Shown here one piece after another: positions 3,698 to 25,028 of a stretch of 25,787 nt of DNA. The position numbers and the translations under genes were made by a program. Each line of letters starts with the position of its first letter. Within the stretch, counting starts at the first letter, position 1. The notes under the pieces were generated by a model, which did not search any database, was not told where the DNA came from, and saw only the letters and a program-made list of their open reading frames with translations. The DNA comes from a virus. The DNA lies in the IMG/VR virus record IMGVR_UViG_3300005511_000070, positions 1 through 25,787 of that record. One strand, 5' to 3'.

Positions 3698-4621
3698 TCA
3701 CACCTCCGGGAATGCGTCGTGGGTGACGCCGTCGATCGTGCGCCCGGATAGCTTCTTTCCGATCCGGCGAACCGTTGCGCCGTCTTCGAACTTGAAATGA
3801 TCTCCAGGACCGGCGACCTCCGAGACCGACACCCACTCGCCGTTCTGCTTATGGTGGAATGGCACCGACCACGCAGCGCACTGATCACGCAGCTTACGAA
3901 ACCAGTCCGGATGAGTGGGGCGCGCCTTATGCCCGCCCTGGTCGGTTTCTCCTCCGGTGATTACCCAGTCGATGCCGTAGATCAATGGAGGATCGGTCGG
4001 CATGCCACGGCACCCGCACATATAACCGTTGCAGCACATCGGCGGTCCGCCAGGCCAGACGCTATTCGGCCATTCGAGATCGATCTCACCCACAAGTGGT
4101 TCGCAGGAAAGGAAGGCGAAGAGCGGATTCGTCTCGTGCTTCGCACGCAGCAATGCCGGAATGTTGGTATCGGCCCGCTTCTGATCCTCGATGGTCGTTC
4201 CGATCGCCGCGTTGCTCGGCAAGCCGCCAGCCTCGGTTGCAAGCTTGATGATGTTCTGAGGGCGCTTGGTCAGCAGCAGGTAAACAAGGCGCGGCGTCTT
4301 GCGCATTACCTCAAAGGCGTCGGCGCGCCATTGCGGATCCCACTGATTGTCAAAGACGTCAGCGAGAGAACAGCAGAAGACAAATGGACGATCACCGTCC
4401 TTTTCGGCTTGGCGCTGCCACCTTAAAGGATCATTCCACGTGCTGGCGCCTGTCCTGGAGAGCGTCCCCTTTTGTCCAGGCTTCCCCCACTGCACACGAT
4501 GATATCGGTGATCCATCATCGCTTCCGCATAACACCCGTCGCACGCGGGGCTGACCTTGGTGCAGCCTATCACCGGGTTCCAAGTGTGGCGCGTCCACGA
4601 AATTGCAGAATTCTCAGCCAT
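3698..4621 (-). CDS. DUF5131 (Gp37/Gp68) family protein
   Basis: A 307-residue member of the phage Gp37/Gp68 family. The hallmark N-terminus 'WNPVIGCTKVSPACDGCYAE' places Cys20, Cys27 and Cys30 together, an arrangement suggestive of an iron-sulfur cluster as in radical-SAM-like TIM barrels. Further conserved pieces are 'LLLTKRP', 'FLSCEPL', 'IDWVITGGETDQGGH' and 'PFHHKQNG'. The catalytic activity is not established. The start at 4621 (MAENSAISWT) gives an 8-base overlap with recT; two earlier in-frame starts are possible. A role in nucleic-acid modification is often guessed but cannot be shown here. Confidence 0.9.
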   Translation of the reverse strand: MAENSAISWTRHTWNPVIGCTKVSPACDGCYAEAMMDHRYHRVQWGKPGQKGTLSRTGASTWNDPLRWQRQAEKDGDRPFVFCCSLADVFDNQWDPQWRADAFEVMRKTPRLVYLLLTKRPQNIIKLATEAGGLPSNAAIGTTIEDQKRADTNIPALLRAKHETNPLFAFLSCEPLVGEIDLEWPNSVWPGGPPMCCNGYMCGCRGMPTDPPLIYGIDWVITGGETDQGGHKARPTHPDWFRKLRDQCAAWSVPFHHKQNGEWVSVSEVAGPGDHFKFEDGATVRRIGKKLSGRTIDGVTHDAFPEV

Positions 4622-5801
4622 TTGCGTCGGCTCCCAAATCATAGATCGAGCATCCGAGCGCCTCTGCGTAATAATCCAGCGCGCTATCCAGGCTCGTGTT
4701 CCCGTTGAAGATCGCCCGCATGGACTTCGAGATGCTGTTGGCCTTGGCTTGTCCTTCAGGAGACATCGCCTTGATCCGCGGTGCCCATTCGTTCTCGATC
4801 GCCTTCAGCGCTGCGCCAGAGGTTTCGGTATCGGCAGCCATCGGCAGCACGTCTCGGGCGAACTGGATGAGCAGACCGTTCTCTGTCTCAGGTGCCGGCG
4901 ATTCCGACGGCGGGTTAGGATCTCCGGCACTGTCCGATACTCCAGCGGCGGCAGAAGTATCGGAAGAGGTGGAGGAGACCGGGGCGGGTCCGGTCTCCTC
5001 GTCAGACGGCGGAGGAGGCTCGTCTGACGTATCCGACGGCGGGGGCGGTGCGTCGGATTCGGTTTCATCATTGAGTATTTCGCCATCCAAGCCCGTCAGC
5101 GTCTGTTCAGTCTCCGAGTGGACGAACGAACTGTCAAAGCCTTCACGATCGCCGGTGGGCTGCTGGGTGGCGTTCTGGCGCAAGCGCTGCATGACGGTCG
5201 GCTGCGGAGTGATATCACGGGCGTTGTCGGGGCCTTGGAACTGCTCGGCCTCGTCTCGGTCATACACCCCAAGGATAACTTCCGGGGTGTGCCGGCGTCC
5301 CCATGCGCGGCCAGTGTAGTAGCAATGCTGCTGATCTGGATCGGACTTCCACAAGGGCGAGTTCTTCGGGGTTATATCCTTGAACTTCGGCGATCGGACT
5401 TCCAGAACCTTTCCATCCAGCTTGCCAGAAGCGATACATACCTTGTCAGCGCCTTCACCCTCGAAACGGTATTCAAGCCGCCCCTCAATCCCAGACCGCG
5501 TGTTAATGACGGCAATGATGAGCTGCGCCTCGTAGGCGATCATGCCGTTCACCTGATAGGACTTGGAAGCAACCGCAAAAGGGTTCATCTGCCAGTCGAG
5601 GGCCTGCAGGGATACGGCCATGCATGCGCCGGCGTTCCCGCGCAGGTGCTTCGGAAGAGCGATATCGGCTCGGCACATCACCTCGGCGAACTTAACGACC
5701 TCGGCCAGGTTCTGCGGGGCGATCTTCGCGCCGGTCGAGCCGGTGGACATGCCGACCGAATCCATCGGAAGGCGTTCGGTGCGTTCTGCGAGTTGGTTCA
5801 T
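4614..5801 (-). CDS. recT: RecT-family single-strand annealing protein
   Basis: A 395-residue protein whose first 200 residues match RecT: 'LPKHLRGNAGACMAVSLQALDW' near 49-70, 'MNPFAVASKSYQVNG' near 72-86 and 'YEAQLIIAVIN' near 90-100. RecT coats single-stranded DNA left by an exonuclease and anneals it to a complementary strand. A Pro/Ser/Glu/Asp-rich linker (about 240-315) separates it from a C-terminal helical domain (about 315-395) that is not part of typical RecT, making the protein longer than the usual 270-300. It follows the ExoX-like gene with a one-base TAATG overlap. Confidence 0.92.
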   Translation of the reverse strand: MNQLAERTERLPMDSVGMSTGSTGAKIAPQNLAEVVKFAEVMCRADIALPKHLRGNAGACMAVSLQALDWQMNPFAVASKSYQVNGMIAYEAQLIIAVINTRSGIEGRLEYRFEGEGADKVCIASGKLDGKVLEVRSPKFKDITPKNSPLWKSDPDQQHCYYTGRAWGRRHTPEVILGVYDRDEAEQFQGPDNARDITPQPTVMQRLRQNATQQPTGDREGFDSSFVHSETEQTLTGLDGEILNDETESDAPPPPSDTSDEPPPPSDEETGPAPVSSTSSDTSAAAGVSDSAGDPNPPSESPAPETENGLLIQFARDVLPMAADTETSGAALKAIENEWAPRIKAMSPEGQAKANSISKSMRAIFNGNTSLDSALDYYAEALGCSIYDLGADANG

Positions 5802-9440: not shown

Positions 9441-9469
9441 AATATGCATTACGCATTATTGTGCGTCAA
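9441..9469 (-). promoter_or_regulatory. leftward early promoter (PL-like)
   Basis: On the minus strand TTGACG (9469-9464) is followed after exactly 17 bases by CATATT (9446-9441), a good sigma-70 arrangement for Rhizobiales. Transcription would start near 9434. The -35 lies inside operator 2, operator 1 covers the end of the spacer and most of the -10, and operator 3 is just upstream, so bound repressor would block polymerase. Confidence 0.75.
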
Positions 9470-9491
9470 GCATAAAAGATGCAGAACGCAT
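9444..9491. promoter_or_regulatory. left operator cluster, three ATGC-N5-GCAT sites
   Basis: Three 13-base partial palindromes: ATGCATTACGCAT (9444-9456), GTGCGTCAAGCAT (9461-9473) and ATGCAGAACGCAT (9479-9491). Centre-to-centre spacings are 17 and 18 bases, which would put dimers on nearly the same helical side, as in lambda OL. The same consensus appears three times before the cro-like gene. Binding by the S24 repressor and by the Cro-like protein is inferred. Confidence 0.8.
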
Positions 9492-9500
9492 TTTATTTTG

Positions 9501-9530
9501 TTGACCGTCGGCAACGCCGGGGCTTATGCA
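9501..9530 (+). promoter_or_regulatory. possible rightward promoter for the structured leader
   Basis: TTGACC (9501-9506) is followed after 18 bases by TATGCA (9525-9530), a moderate sigma-70 match. A transcript would begin near 9537, exactly where the structured sequence starts. It is not overlapped by a full operator, so it might remain active in a lysogen. Evidence is sequence resemblance only. Confidence 0.4.
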
Positions 9531-9536
9531 TAGGCA

Positions 9537-9793
9537 ATCGACGGGCGACCGGGTGCAATTCCCGAGCTGGTGAAGCCCGAGGCGCGGGGAGCGAGAGTCC
9601 TGCTGTGCTGCCAGAAAATGCAGGACGGATCAGCCGCAAGGCATCCTGCTAGAGCGACCGACCGAACGACGGTTCAAGCCCGAAGCACACGCTCCTCCTG
9701 CTCTTCAGGGTCTTTACAGGCTTTGAGGGGTAGGGGGAGCTTTGCTTCACTCCCTCCCTTCTCTCGGGTTCAAGACCAGAAAAACAGATACCT
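9537..9793 (+). ncRNA. structured non-coding leader or small RNA (candidate)
   Basis: About 260 bases without a convincing gene but dense in pairing: CGGGC/GCCCG (9542-9546 with 9575-9579) enclosing CGGG-TGCAATT-CCCG (9550-9564); GTCCTGC/GCAGGAC (9597-9603 with 9620-9626); GCAGGA/TCCTGC (9620-9625 with 9644-9649), which competes with the previous stem; and GGTCTT/AAGACC (9709-9714 with 9772-9777) around a long G-rich/C-rich hairpin (9727-9760). It directly precedes the ribosome site of a short reading frame at 9806. It may be a regulatory 5' leader or an independent RNA. No known riboswitch class is matched. Confidence 0.4.
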
Positions 9794-9805
9794 TGAGGAG
9801 AGTAG

Positions 9806-9934
9806 ATGGTCTCTCTGAAGCGCGAAAATAAAATTCATAGTTGCTGTCGCGGGTTAGCGCGAATCAGCGCGCCGAAGCGAAAAATCGATTCGACTCTTCC
9901 ATCAGGATTTGCTTTTAATCCGAGAACGAAATGA
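9806..9934 (+). CDS. possible 42-residue basic peptide
   Basis: A short reading frame with a strong ribosome site (GAGGAG, about six bases before ATG). The product begins MVSLKRENK, has a CC pair at residues 13-14 and is rich in Lys, Arg and Ser. Its sequence is more AT-rich than its neighbours, and no family is recognisable. It lies just after the structured leader and 19 bases before the next gene, so it could be a leader peptide or a real small basic protein. It also contains three GANTC sites (9861, 9887, 9892). Confidence 0.4.
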   Translation: MVSLKRENKIHSCCRGLARISAPKRKIDSTLPSGFAFNPRTK

Positions 9935-9953
9935 GAACAAACGGGAGAAGAGA

Positions 9954-10220
9954 ATGCCGCGTGCTCCAGTCGACCACCCCGAAGCAATGCGCCTGGTCGT
10001 CGAACTCTCGAGCTTATACGTCGCCTGTGACGACTGCGGTCACTCCCGCGTTCTGCATCTCTCGAACCTGAAGAAGGCCGCCGAACTGGGCGTCCACAAT
10101 TACATGCAGCTCTGTCGGAAGATCCGGTGTAGCGAGTGCCCGAAGACGCCGCCGGCATTGCGCAATCTCACCATTCGCCCGACCTGGGTCGATCATGGCC
10201 AGCTTCAGACCGTGGCGTGA
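9954..10220 (+). CDS. small four-cysteine zinc-binding protein
   Basis: An 88-residue protein with CxxC pairs at Cys25/Cys28 and Cys59/Cys62 flanking a helical stretch ('LSNLKKAAELGVHNYMQL'), a likely zinc ribbon that could bind nucleic acid. The start MPRAPVDH at 9954 is preferred because GGGAGAAGAGA precedes it; a further-upstream in-frame start has no ribosome site. It is convergent with the repressor gene and their 3' ends overlap by 16 bases (10205-10220). Function is unknown; a lysogeny-related accessory role is plausible from position. Confidence 0.75.
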   Translation: MPRAPVDHPEAMRLVVELSSLYVACDDCGHSRVLHLSNLKKAAELGVHNYMQLCRKIRCSECPKTPPALRNLTIRPTWVDHGQLQTVA

Positions 10221-10924
10221 AATACGATCTTGTGGATCGAGAACACTTGGTCAGTGTCGAAGGAAAGCTCCTGCGTCTCTCCCTCGTCGGGATTATGCTG
10301 CCATAGGCGAGTGACGCTGGCCGATCGCGACACAAATCGCTTGATGTAACTCTCCCGGCCATTTTCTTCATCGGTGATCAGCTGCACGACGACATCGTCA
10401 CCTTGACGAACAGGCTCGTGCGGGTTCAGCCACACAGTCTCGCCTGCATAATACCGCGGCTCCATGCTCGTTCCGTAAACGCGGACGGCATAGGCGCCCT
10501 CGACGCCTTCGAGCATAGGCGGGATGAAGACCCGGCCCACTTCTGATCCGTTTAGAACGAAGCGGCCATTCGGGCCGCCTACTGTTTGCCCGAGCAGGGG
10601 CAGAAAATTGTCGGTGGCAAATGGCTGGTAGCGAGGCGGGAAGCTGGCATTCGGTTTGGTGCGGGTTTCCACAACCGGAACACGCTCGTCAGCGGCTGCA
10701 CCCGTTGGGCCATCGCCTTTGCCTCTCATCAGCCAATCAAGCGAAATCTTGTATCGGCGCACATAGAGATCTGCCTCCCTGGTGATCCCCCGAGTGCCGT
10801 TCTCGTGCTGCGAATACGTGGGGTAGGGCACGCCAAGAGACTCGGCCGCCGCCTTAGCTGTTTTGAAGCCAGCCTTCTTCCTCGCAGCTTTCAGGCGCTG
10901 CCCGATTTCAACATCATCTGCCAT
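10205..10924 (-). CDS. CI/LexA-like phage repressor with S24 peptidase domain
   Basis: A 239-residue lysogeny repressor. Residues 5-65 are an XRE-type helix-turn-helix ('RLKAARKKAGF', 'AAAESLGVPYPTYSQHENG'). Residues about 110-230 are the S24 fold with catalytic Ser153 in 'YGTSMEPRY' and Lys195 in 'ESYIKRF'. Such repressors bind operators as dimers and are inactivated by RecA-stimulated self-cleavage. The usual Ala-Gly cleavage pair is not evident; 'TVGGPNG' lies near the expected place. ATG 10924 is preferred to an in-frame GTG at 10930; its ribosome site is weak. It is divergent from the Cro-like gene with three operators between them. Confidence 0.92.
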   Translation of the reverse strand: MADDVEIGQRLKAARKKAGFKTAKAAAESLGVPYPTYSQHENGTRGITREADLYVRRYKISLDWLMRGKGDGPTGAAADERVPVVETRTKPNASFPPRYQPFATDNFLPLLGQTVGGPNGRFVLNGSEVGRVFIPPMLEGVEGAYAVRVYGTSMEPRYYAGETVWLNPHEPVRQGDDVVVQLITDEENGRESYIKRFVSRSASVTRLWQHNPDEGETQELSFDTDQVFSIHKIVFHATV

Positions 10925-10948
10925 ATGCACGTTCTACCGAAAACAAAA

Positions 10949-11004
10949 ATGCAAGAGGCATTGACACGAAAGAATGCGTAAGGCATTTAATATGCATGAC
11001 GCAC
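10949..11004. promoter_or_regulatory. right operator cluster, three ATGC-N5-GCAT sites
   Basis: ATGCAAGAGGCAT (10949-10961), ATGCGTAAGGCAT (10974-10986) and ATGCATGACGCAC (10992-11004), with centre spacings of 25 and 18 bases. They sit between the divergent repressor and Cro-like genes, covering the edge of the rightward -35, its spacer and its start region. The first is closest to the repressor gene and could serve autoregulation, like lambda OR3. Confidence 0.8.
10961..10991 (+). promoter_or_regulatory. rightward early promoter (PR-like)
   Basis: A perfect TTGACA (10961-10966) is followed by a T-rich -10 region; the best match is TTTAAT (10986-10991) with a 19-base spacer, or a weaker hexamer at 17. 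Transcription would start at about 10996-10998, essentially at the ATG of the Cro-like gene. Operator 5 lies in the spacer, and operator 6 covers the start point. Confidence 0.7.
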
Positions 11005-11208
11005 GATCTGAACCACTCCGAGAACATCAAGGCCGCGATGAAGACGCTCGGCCTCAACCAGCCACGCTTTGCCGATGAACTCGGCGTTGACCAGGGCACA
11101 GTGTCCAAGTGGATCAACGGCAAAGCAAACCCGTCGGGACCAGTTCTTAAGCTGATCGACCGGATGCTCGCCGACCACGTGGCGCAGGTTTCGGAGGCCG
11201 CAGAGTGA
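10996..11208 (+). CDS. Cro-like XRE helix-turn-helix regulator
   Basis: A 70-residue protein that is almost wholly an XRE helix-turn-helix: 'IKAAMKTLGLNQPRFADELGVDQGTVSKWING' spans helices 1-4 (about residues 11-42), and 'SGPVLKLIDRML' gives the dimer-side helix. It begins the rightward operon opposite the repressor and likely binds the same ATGC-N5-GCAT sites to limit repressor synthesis. The ATG lies inside operator 6 at the predicted transcription start, so the mRNA may be leaderless. ATG 11038 would remove part of helix 1 and is less likely. Confidence 0.88.
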   Translation: MTHDLNHSENIKAAMKTLGLNQPRFADELGVDQGTVSKWINGKANPSGPVLKLIDRMLADHVAQVSEAAE

Positions 11209-23655: not shown

Positions 23656-25028
23656 ACCAAGTTGTACGGCTGGCAAACTACGCACAGCGCCGGCTCGGCA
23701 GCATGTTCCCGGCCTTCTTCCCGGGTCAGAACGTCAAGCATGACTACTACAAGGACTTCGGCTGGCCTGAGACGCTGACCTTTGATCAGCTCTACAAGAT
23801 GTATCTGCGCAACGGCGTGGCTGCTGCCGGCGTGGACAAGACGGCACTGAAGACATGGCAGGACGCGCCATTCCTCCTTGAGCAGGAGCGCGACGGCTCG
23901 GAAACCGGCCCGCAGAAGGAAACGACACTCGAAAGGGATATCCGCAAGAAGTTTGCCGCGCTGCGCCTGTGGGCCAAGCTTGCCGATGCGGACCGCATGG
24001 CAATGGTGGGCGGCTATTCCGGCGTGATCCTACGGGTGAGGGACGGCAAGGCATTCGACCAGCCAGTCGACCGCGTACCGGGTGGGCTCGATGGTCTTTA
24101 TAAGGTCGACCCGGTCTGGAAAGGTCAGCTCACGGTCGCCGAATATGATGCTGATCCTCGGTCGGAAACCTATGGCGAGCCGACCATGTATCAGTTCACC
24201 GAGTCCGCTCTGGACGGTGACAAGAAGCAGAATCGCCAGCTTCGCATCCATCCCGACCGCGTGCTGATCTGGTCGGAAGACGGCACGATCTATGGCCGGT
24301 CGATCCTTGAACCTGGCTTCAACGACCTGATTGACATGGACAAGGTCAAGGGCGCGGGGGGCGAGGGCTTCTGGAAGAACGCCAAGTCGGCGCCGGTGCT
24401 CGAAATCGACAAGGAAGCCAAGATCGACCAGATGGCGAAGGCCATGGGTGTCACGGTCGAAGAGCTTGCCGACAAGATGAACGATCAGGTGGCCGACTAT
24501 AACGCCGGCTTCGATCAGCTTCTGATGCTCATGGGCATGCAGGCGAAGCAGCTCAATGTTACGCTGCCGTCGCCCGAGCACTTCTTCGGAACCCCGCTGA
24601 GCTCGTTCGCAGCCTCCATCACTATGCCGGTGAAGATCCTGATCGGCATGCAGACAGGCGAGCGCGCCAGCCAAGAGGATGCAGACGAGTGGGCGCAGAC
24701 CTGCATGTCGCGCCGCGCCAATATCACGCATCCGAACATCATGGAGTTTGTCACACGGCTCGTTCGCTTCGGCATCCTGCCGGAGAAGGACTGGTTCATC
24801 GACCAGGCCGACCTGACAGAGGCATCGATGGGCGAGAAGATCGACCGCGCCGTGAAGATGGCCGACGTCAACCAGAAGACCGGCACCACCGAGTGGGTCT
24901 TCACGCCCGAGGATATCCGCGGCGCCGTCGGCTATGAGCCGCTGGACGAAGGCGACAAGTATCGAGACGAAGCGACGGATGAAGAAACCGCCGCATCTCT
25001 CGGGAAACCCACACCCACACAGGAATAA
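23652..25028 (+). CDS. phage portal protein (PF06381/DUF1073 type)
   Basis: A 458-residue protein following terL directly, as portals do. It has 'DFGWPETLTFDQLYKMYLRNGVAAAGVDKTA' near 35-65, 'VPGGLDGLYKVDPVWKGQL' (about 140-160), 'RIHPDRVLIWSEDGTIYGRSILEP' (about 196-220) and a long helical stem before 'LLMLMGMQAKQLNVTLPSPEHFFG'. A ring of 12 would form the packaging vertex. The family is now named anti-CBASS Acb1-like in some databases because of shared domain architecture; the head-gene context supports a portal. No defence role is implied by sequence. Confidence 0.9.
   Translation: MNQVVRLANYAQRRLGSMFPAFFPGQNVKHDYYKDFGWPETLTFDQLYKMYLRNGVAAAGVDKTALKTWQDAPFLLEQERDGSETGPQKETTLERDIRKKFAALRLWAKLADADRMAMVGGYSGVILRVRDGKAFDQPVDRVPGGLDGLYKVDPVWKGQLTVAEYDADPRSETYGEPTMYQFTESALDGDKKQNRQLRIHPDRVLIWSEDGTIYGRSILEPGFNDLIDMDKVKGAGGEGFWKNAKSAPVLEIDKEAKIDQMAKAMGVTVEELADKMNDQVADYNAGFDQLLMLMGMQAKQLNVTLPSPEHFFGTPLSSFAASITMPVKILIGMQTGERASQEDADEWAQTCMSRRANITHPNIMEFVTRLVRFGILPEKDWFIDQADLTEASMGEKIDRAVKMADVNQKTGTTEWVFTPEDIRGAVGYEPLDEGDKYRDEATDEETAASLGKPTPTQE

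Follow-up and report, generated by a model that had tools for sequence, protein, structure and literature searches.

The window analysed here, a 25,787-nucleotide stretch of viral DNA (positions 1 to 25,787, the whole of IMG/VR record IMGVR_UViG_3300005511_000070), contains an immunity region built around a cI repressor gene (10205..10924, minus strand) and a divergent cro-like gene of 70 aa (10996..11208, plus strand). Domain matches assign an HTH N-terminal domain and a Peptidase_S24 C-terminal domain to the repressor and an HTH_3 domain to the Cro-like protein, whose recognition region is well conserved. The S24 Ser/Lys pair of the repressor (S153 and K195) is invariant, and the best match of its model in a fold search was the lambda repressor (3bdn); the AlphaFold model itself is good only in the HTH and weak elsewhere, with a mean pLDDT of 60. 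A small gene which we call 'MID' (9954..10220, plus strand) is convergent with cI and overlaps its 3' end. Its four-cysteine, zinc-ribbon-like product gave no Pfam or PHROG match, and in nearly all loci the gene accompanies this type of cI C-terminal domain. The leftward genes include an integrase, a DUF5131-type relative in the leftward operon (3698-4642) and, as we assume from reading the sequence by eye, RecT-like and nuclease-like proteins, and the rightward genes include a DnaB-type helicase.

In agreement with the preliminary description, the S24 repressor gene and the cro-like gene are flanked by two clusters of 13-base sites of the form ATGC-N5-GCAT, and all six sites were recovered at the positions it gave, four of them perfect and two deviating by one base. 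The left cluster (OL) comprises a perfect promoter-proximal operator at 9444..9456 (ATGCATTACGCAT), which overlaps the -10 region of the leftward promoter PL; a weak middle site with one mismatch at 9461..9473 (GTGCGTCAAGCAT), which contains the PL -35 hexamer; and a perfect outer operator at 9479..9491 (ATGCAGAACGCAT), with a -35 box 9 bp away on either side, the two being divergent. The promoter-proximal and outer positions each carry a site in 11/11 phages of the same immunity, the outer one with one mismatch in L027. The right cluster (OR) consists of a perfect operator at 10949..10961 (ATGCAAGAGGCAT) upstream of the -35 box of the rightward promoter PR, a second perfect operator at 10974..10986 (ATGCGTAAGGCAT), which lies between the -35 and -10 boxes and reaches the latter, and a weaker third site with one mismatch at 10992..11004 (ATGCATGACGCAC), inside which the cro start codon falls.

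Promoters were called by consensus. The predicted PL (TTGACG-N17-CATATT, 9441..9469, minus strand) reads into the leftward operon, and its TTGAC and -10 region are kept in 11/11 relatives. Whether the first leftward gene really begins at the ORF start at 9456 is doubtful, since this position lies upstream of the expected PL start. The predicted PR (TTGACA-N17-CATTTA, 10961..10989, plus strand) has an imperfect -10 box, for which TTTAAT with a spacing of 19 is an alternative, and its TTGAC stands ahead of the downstream operator in 11/11 relatives. No PRM was identified, and no OR site lies clearly over a PRM -10 box. Counted from where the PR -35 box starts, the cro ATG follows at 35 nt, both in the window and in the majority of the 11 phages. 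Transcription would be expected to begin there, leaving no room for a ribosome-binding site, which suggests that the cro mRNA is probably leaderless. Some loci show extra in-frame cro starts further upstream, and other starts are listed first in L025 and L045. The reverse is the case in lambda, where it is the cI mRNA transcribed from PRM that is leaderless.

The positions of the four perfect sites are conserved among 11 distinct phages with the window's N-terminal repressor domain. Relative to the cI start, the first OR site begins at -62 and the second at -37 (-63 and -38 in L050), and the two OL sites are spaced by 33-36 bp (35 in the window). The OR pair, 25 bp apart, brackets the PR -35 box, and the OL pair brackets that of PL. 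At both promoters of the window, 13 nt separate the start of the -35 box from that of the downstream operator. The start of the upstream operator precedes the -35 box by 12 nt at PR and by 22 nt at PL, so that the two promoters differ by about one turn of the helix. Both one-mismatch sites are the ones that lack general conservation. The conserved design of these predicted operators is two plus two strong sites, nearer to Rhizobium phage 16-3 than to lambda; the six copies, three per side, of the preliminary description are present in the window, but as a conserved design they do not stand and the likeness to lambda was overstated. The lambda design of three plus three was dropped as a family-wide arrangement, because a full third site is not a general feature of the 11 phages.

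A true lambda-type system, in which CI and Cro each bind all six sites with graded affinities and CI octamers loop out the intervening 1.5 kb, is consistent with the six sites in two clusters, with the third OR site being scored in 7/11 phages and with the resemblance, in a fold search, of the CI C-terminal region to the lambda C-terminal domain, including the octamer entry 1kca. However, the full middle OL site occurs solely in the window, where it coincides with a -35 box, the third OR site, which overlaps the start codon of cro, is absent or degenerate in 4/11 phages, and phage 16-3 is annotated with two plus two operators. The OL-OR distance ranges from about 1.1 to 2.2 kb among relatives, and because it varies about twofold the looping predicted earlier gains no support, although OL-OR looping is possible. 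We consider this lambda-type alternative rather unlikely.

Comparison with known systems places the locus more precisely. Like the window, lambda has its repressor and Cro diverging from OR, a second operator cluster at the leftward promoter, an HTH plus S24-type repressor, and recombination and integrase genes to the left with replication genes to the right. The broad features of a lambda-type immunity switch were all found: divergent cI and cro, operators between them, the same operator at PL, and an HTH plus S24 repressor. Three conserved operators per cluster were not found among the 11 phages, and lambda differs from the two plus two conserved sites of the window's group in having three plus three. 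As to RecA-stimulated self-cleavage, another trait of the strict lambda switch, the repressor has the conserved S24 Ser/Lys pair. Further differences from lambda are the 13-bp operators, the predicted divergent RNA promoter beside OL described below and the possibly leaderless cro rather than cI. The earlier proposal of a lambda-like OL/OR switch holds for operators at two divergent early promoters but not for the OR positions, which are unlike those of lambda.

Phage 16-3 (DQ500118), with an annotated C repressor, OL1/OL2, OR1/OR2, PL and PR, shares the cI-centred divergent layout. Its two right operators, spaced by 26 bp (25 in the window), enclose the PR -35, an arrangement likewise found here; its left operators are 17 bp apart, as are the window's sites at 9444 and 9461. 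The C-terminal domain of its repressor is homologous to the window's (43% identity), whereas the N-terminal domain is unrelated, and its left operators read ACAA-N4-TTGT, unlike ATGC-N5-GCAT, so that the specificity of 16-3 is not that of the window. The window's type of structured RNA was not found in the 16-3 immunity region. The predicted switch is one of the known lambda kind with its own DNA code.

Loci were gathered by separate queries with the Cro-like protein, the repressor and each of its two domains, N-terminal and C-terminal. Among distinct repressors with the same N-terminal domain as the window's (76-100% identity), 8/8 are accompanied by at least two perfect OR sites and 8/8 by an OL pair 30-40 bp apart, whereas repressors of the same C-terminal family with an unrelated N-terminal domain have neither the OR sites (0/26) nor the OL pair (0/26). 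Relatives with ATGC-N5-GCAT operators share phylogeny, so that 8/8 versus 0/26 are not independent events, but the comparison is still informative because of recombination between the two repressor domains. In locus L008, 88% of the C-terminal domain is shared but none of the N-terminal domain, and the motif is absent; two unrelated C-terminal domains, the window type and that of L046/L052, occur with one and the same N-terminal domain and operator type. At lower similarity, L082 (N-terminal domain 64% identical) has both the OR sites and the OL pair and L091 (54% identical) is without both features. On this evidence the putative operator sequence and the DNA-binding domain of the repressor go together. 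Several of the 26 loci carry other paired palindromes at both places (GCGA-N3-TCGC, CGGT-N6-ACCG, AAAG-N5-CTTT and GTGGGA..TCCCAC). In the repressors of L046/L019, L052/L020 and phiLM21, which have the second type of C-terminal domain, the S24 GTSM motif reads GNCL; this domain is joined to the window's N-terminal domain and operators in L046/L019 and L052/L020 and to another N-terminal domain in phiLM21.

The same comparison bears on the alternative that the sites serve the Cro-like protein only, or a host regulator, with CI acting elsewhere. The cro-like gene also accompanies the ATGC-N5-GCAT sites, and its conserved recognition region would suit such a role, but presence of the motif tracks the CI N-terminal domain. 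Moreover, more distant alphaproteobacterial CI-type N-terminal domains pair with related palindromes at the same place, those with QHENGTRG mostly with GTGC-N5-GCAC and two with QHERG with GTGA-N5-TCAC. We regard this explanation as improbable.

With respect to the motif itself, the window contains 5 perfect copies of ATGC-N5-GCAT versus 0.70 expected from dinucleotide shuffles, the fifth lying at 23986 inside coding sequence. The preliminary description had suggested scanning the whole prophage for the motif, copies scattered through coding sequence being evidence against its reading; outside the clusters, matches with at most one mismatch are at chance level, with 21 observed in the window against 15 expected from dinucleotide shuffles. 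Clusters of three within 60 bp occur twice in the window, and even one was seen in only 6/400 shuffles; local shuffles gave three matches in 6/5000 cases for OL and 2/5000 for OR. Chance clustering or promoter-sequence bias, with which the background level of one-mismatch matches and the abundance of the bare motif in a host-type genome would agree, is refuted by these cluster statistics and by the position-specific conservation in 11 phages, and we give it practically no credence. The bare motif alone is unspecific because 189 copies occur in the genome (4.8 Mb) of Gellertiella hungarica, a related lysogen that has cI, the sites and the structured RNA described below, and for this reason it was dropped as a genome-wide marker. 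Besides the ATGC and GCAT halves, the phage sites have an A/T-rich centre, and it follows from the 189 copies that much of the specificity would reside in this centre and in the pairing of sites. No mention of the motif, written in six notations, was found in a search of the literature.

Taken together, the region is very probably the lysogeny switch of a temperate rhizobial (Hyphomicrobiales) phage, in which CI would bind ATGC-N5-GCAT through its N-terminal HTH and shut PR and PL. In the mechanism we propose, this S24-type repressor would recognize the palindrome together with its A/T-rich centre. Two strong sites straddle the predicted PR -35 and two the PL -35, the downstream one of each pair reaching the -10, so that bound CI would turn off cro and the replication genes at PR and, at PL, the integrase and the recombination genes. 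In the lysogen, the OL and OR pairs would be occupied by CI and both promoters silent; upon induction, loss of CI would free them. The Cro-like protein would at that point come into play at OR, where its co-occurrence with the sites suggests that it probably competes for some of those bound by CI. The analysis thereby supplies testable candidate operators for a group of rhizobial phages, and the natural swaps of DNA-binding domain and operator are candidate orthogonal repressor-operator pairs for alphaproteobacteria.

The gene layout of the window is also that of Sinorhizobium phage phiLM21 and of phiLM21-like prophages. The latter are common in Sinorhizobium meliloti; they are reported to lack the lambda and 16-3 operators, and the same paper describes their actual operators as unknown (PMC12429752, 2025). 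The same reading proposes operator candidates for phiLM21 itself, which are GTAGCG...CGCTAC-like (L060, 9911-9962 and 11180-11270 of NC_029046). Two palindromes, at 9911 and 9946 of NC_029046, lie left of cI with a spacing of 35 bp, and related half-sites lie near cI-cro. phiLM21 differs from the window in operator sequence and in repressor N-terminal domain, and the structured RNA was not found in the part of it that was searched.

Beside OL, the window carries a divergent promoter-like sequence and a conserved, apparently structured RNA, a new feature missed by the preliminary description. The promoter-like sequence, P_RNA (TTGACC-N18-TATGCA, 9501..9530, plus strand), was read from the sequence and is aligned in homologs. 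It is followed by a candidate structured non-coding RNA of about 240 nt (9537..9776, plus strand), proposed from folding and covariation, which folds better than 200 shuffles (z = -4.6). Homologs were collected from related loci, from an exact 16-base scan of viral contigs and from whole genomes; matches at E <= 0.001 occurred in 12/151 sampled genomes of one family, the weakest being doubtful. In an alignment of 22 sequences, 12/46 pairs show changes on both sides and 97.6% of cells pair, and sliding the structure along the alignment destroys both signals. A second alignment of 12 sequences, seven of them homologs from outside model building, shows compensatory changes in 22/47 pairs. Rfam returned no match at threshold, only one at chance level (sR53, E = 0.8), and a slight likeness by eye of the 5' part to a cobalamin box was not supported by search. 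The RNA appears to be an unlisted family; no named phage carrying it was found by blastn.

The outer OL site lies 9 bp from the divergent -35 box of P_RNA, which suggests that CI probably controls the structured RNA. If P_RNA is active and the RNA expressed, the effect of this site could run in either direction, repression or activation; transcription from P_RNA would proceed towards cI and, more speculatively, could oppose it. Many homologs of the RNA have a TTGAC promoter-like sequence upstream. In a strict computer test, a matching palindrome pair 26-46 bp apart was found in 13/30 upstream regions of the RNA versus 3/544 control stretches, and more of the 30 have paired but imperfect palindromes by eye. 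The divergent GTCAA, the -35 core on the other strand, is present in 22/30 upstream regions versus 31/544 controls. The RNA thus lies beside OL-like sites in many rhizobial phages, including some whose putative operators are quite different, with GGTAT-N5-ATACC in L104 and L135, GAAAGC..GCTTTC in L134 and CGGT-N6-ACCG in L142. Only 5/11 same-immunity phages carry the RNA, so it is not essential to the window's immunity type. A wider reading, for and against which we see equal weight, is that OL controls transcription in both directions, its outer operator being common to PL and to the promoter of the new RNA family, that the RNA and the promoter-operator scaffold outlast swaps of the repressor DNA-binding domain and its operator, and that in many rhizobial phages the RNA is controlled by the repressor and takes part in the control of lysis and lysogeny. 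If expressed, the RNA would belong to a new family linked with this switch.

In L008, L115, L140 and L148, the RNA is closely followed by a DUF5131-type gene; as an obligate partner of the RNA it is not supported, these four loci being the only such cases. Weak, truncated-looking matches to the RNA model were seen in L145 and L147, which are A/T-rich genomes of 1.5-1.9 Mb. The 3' domain of the RNA occurs in two types, each with a repeated motif, either GGTTCAA or CCTTCAGGA.
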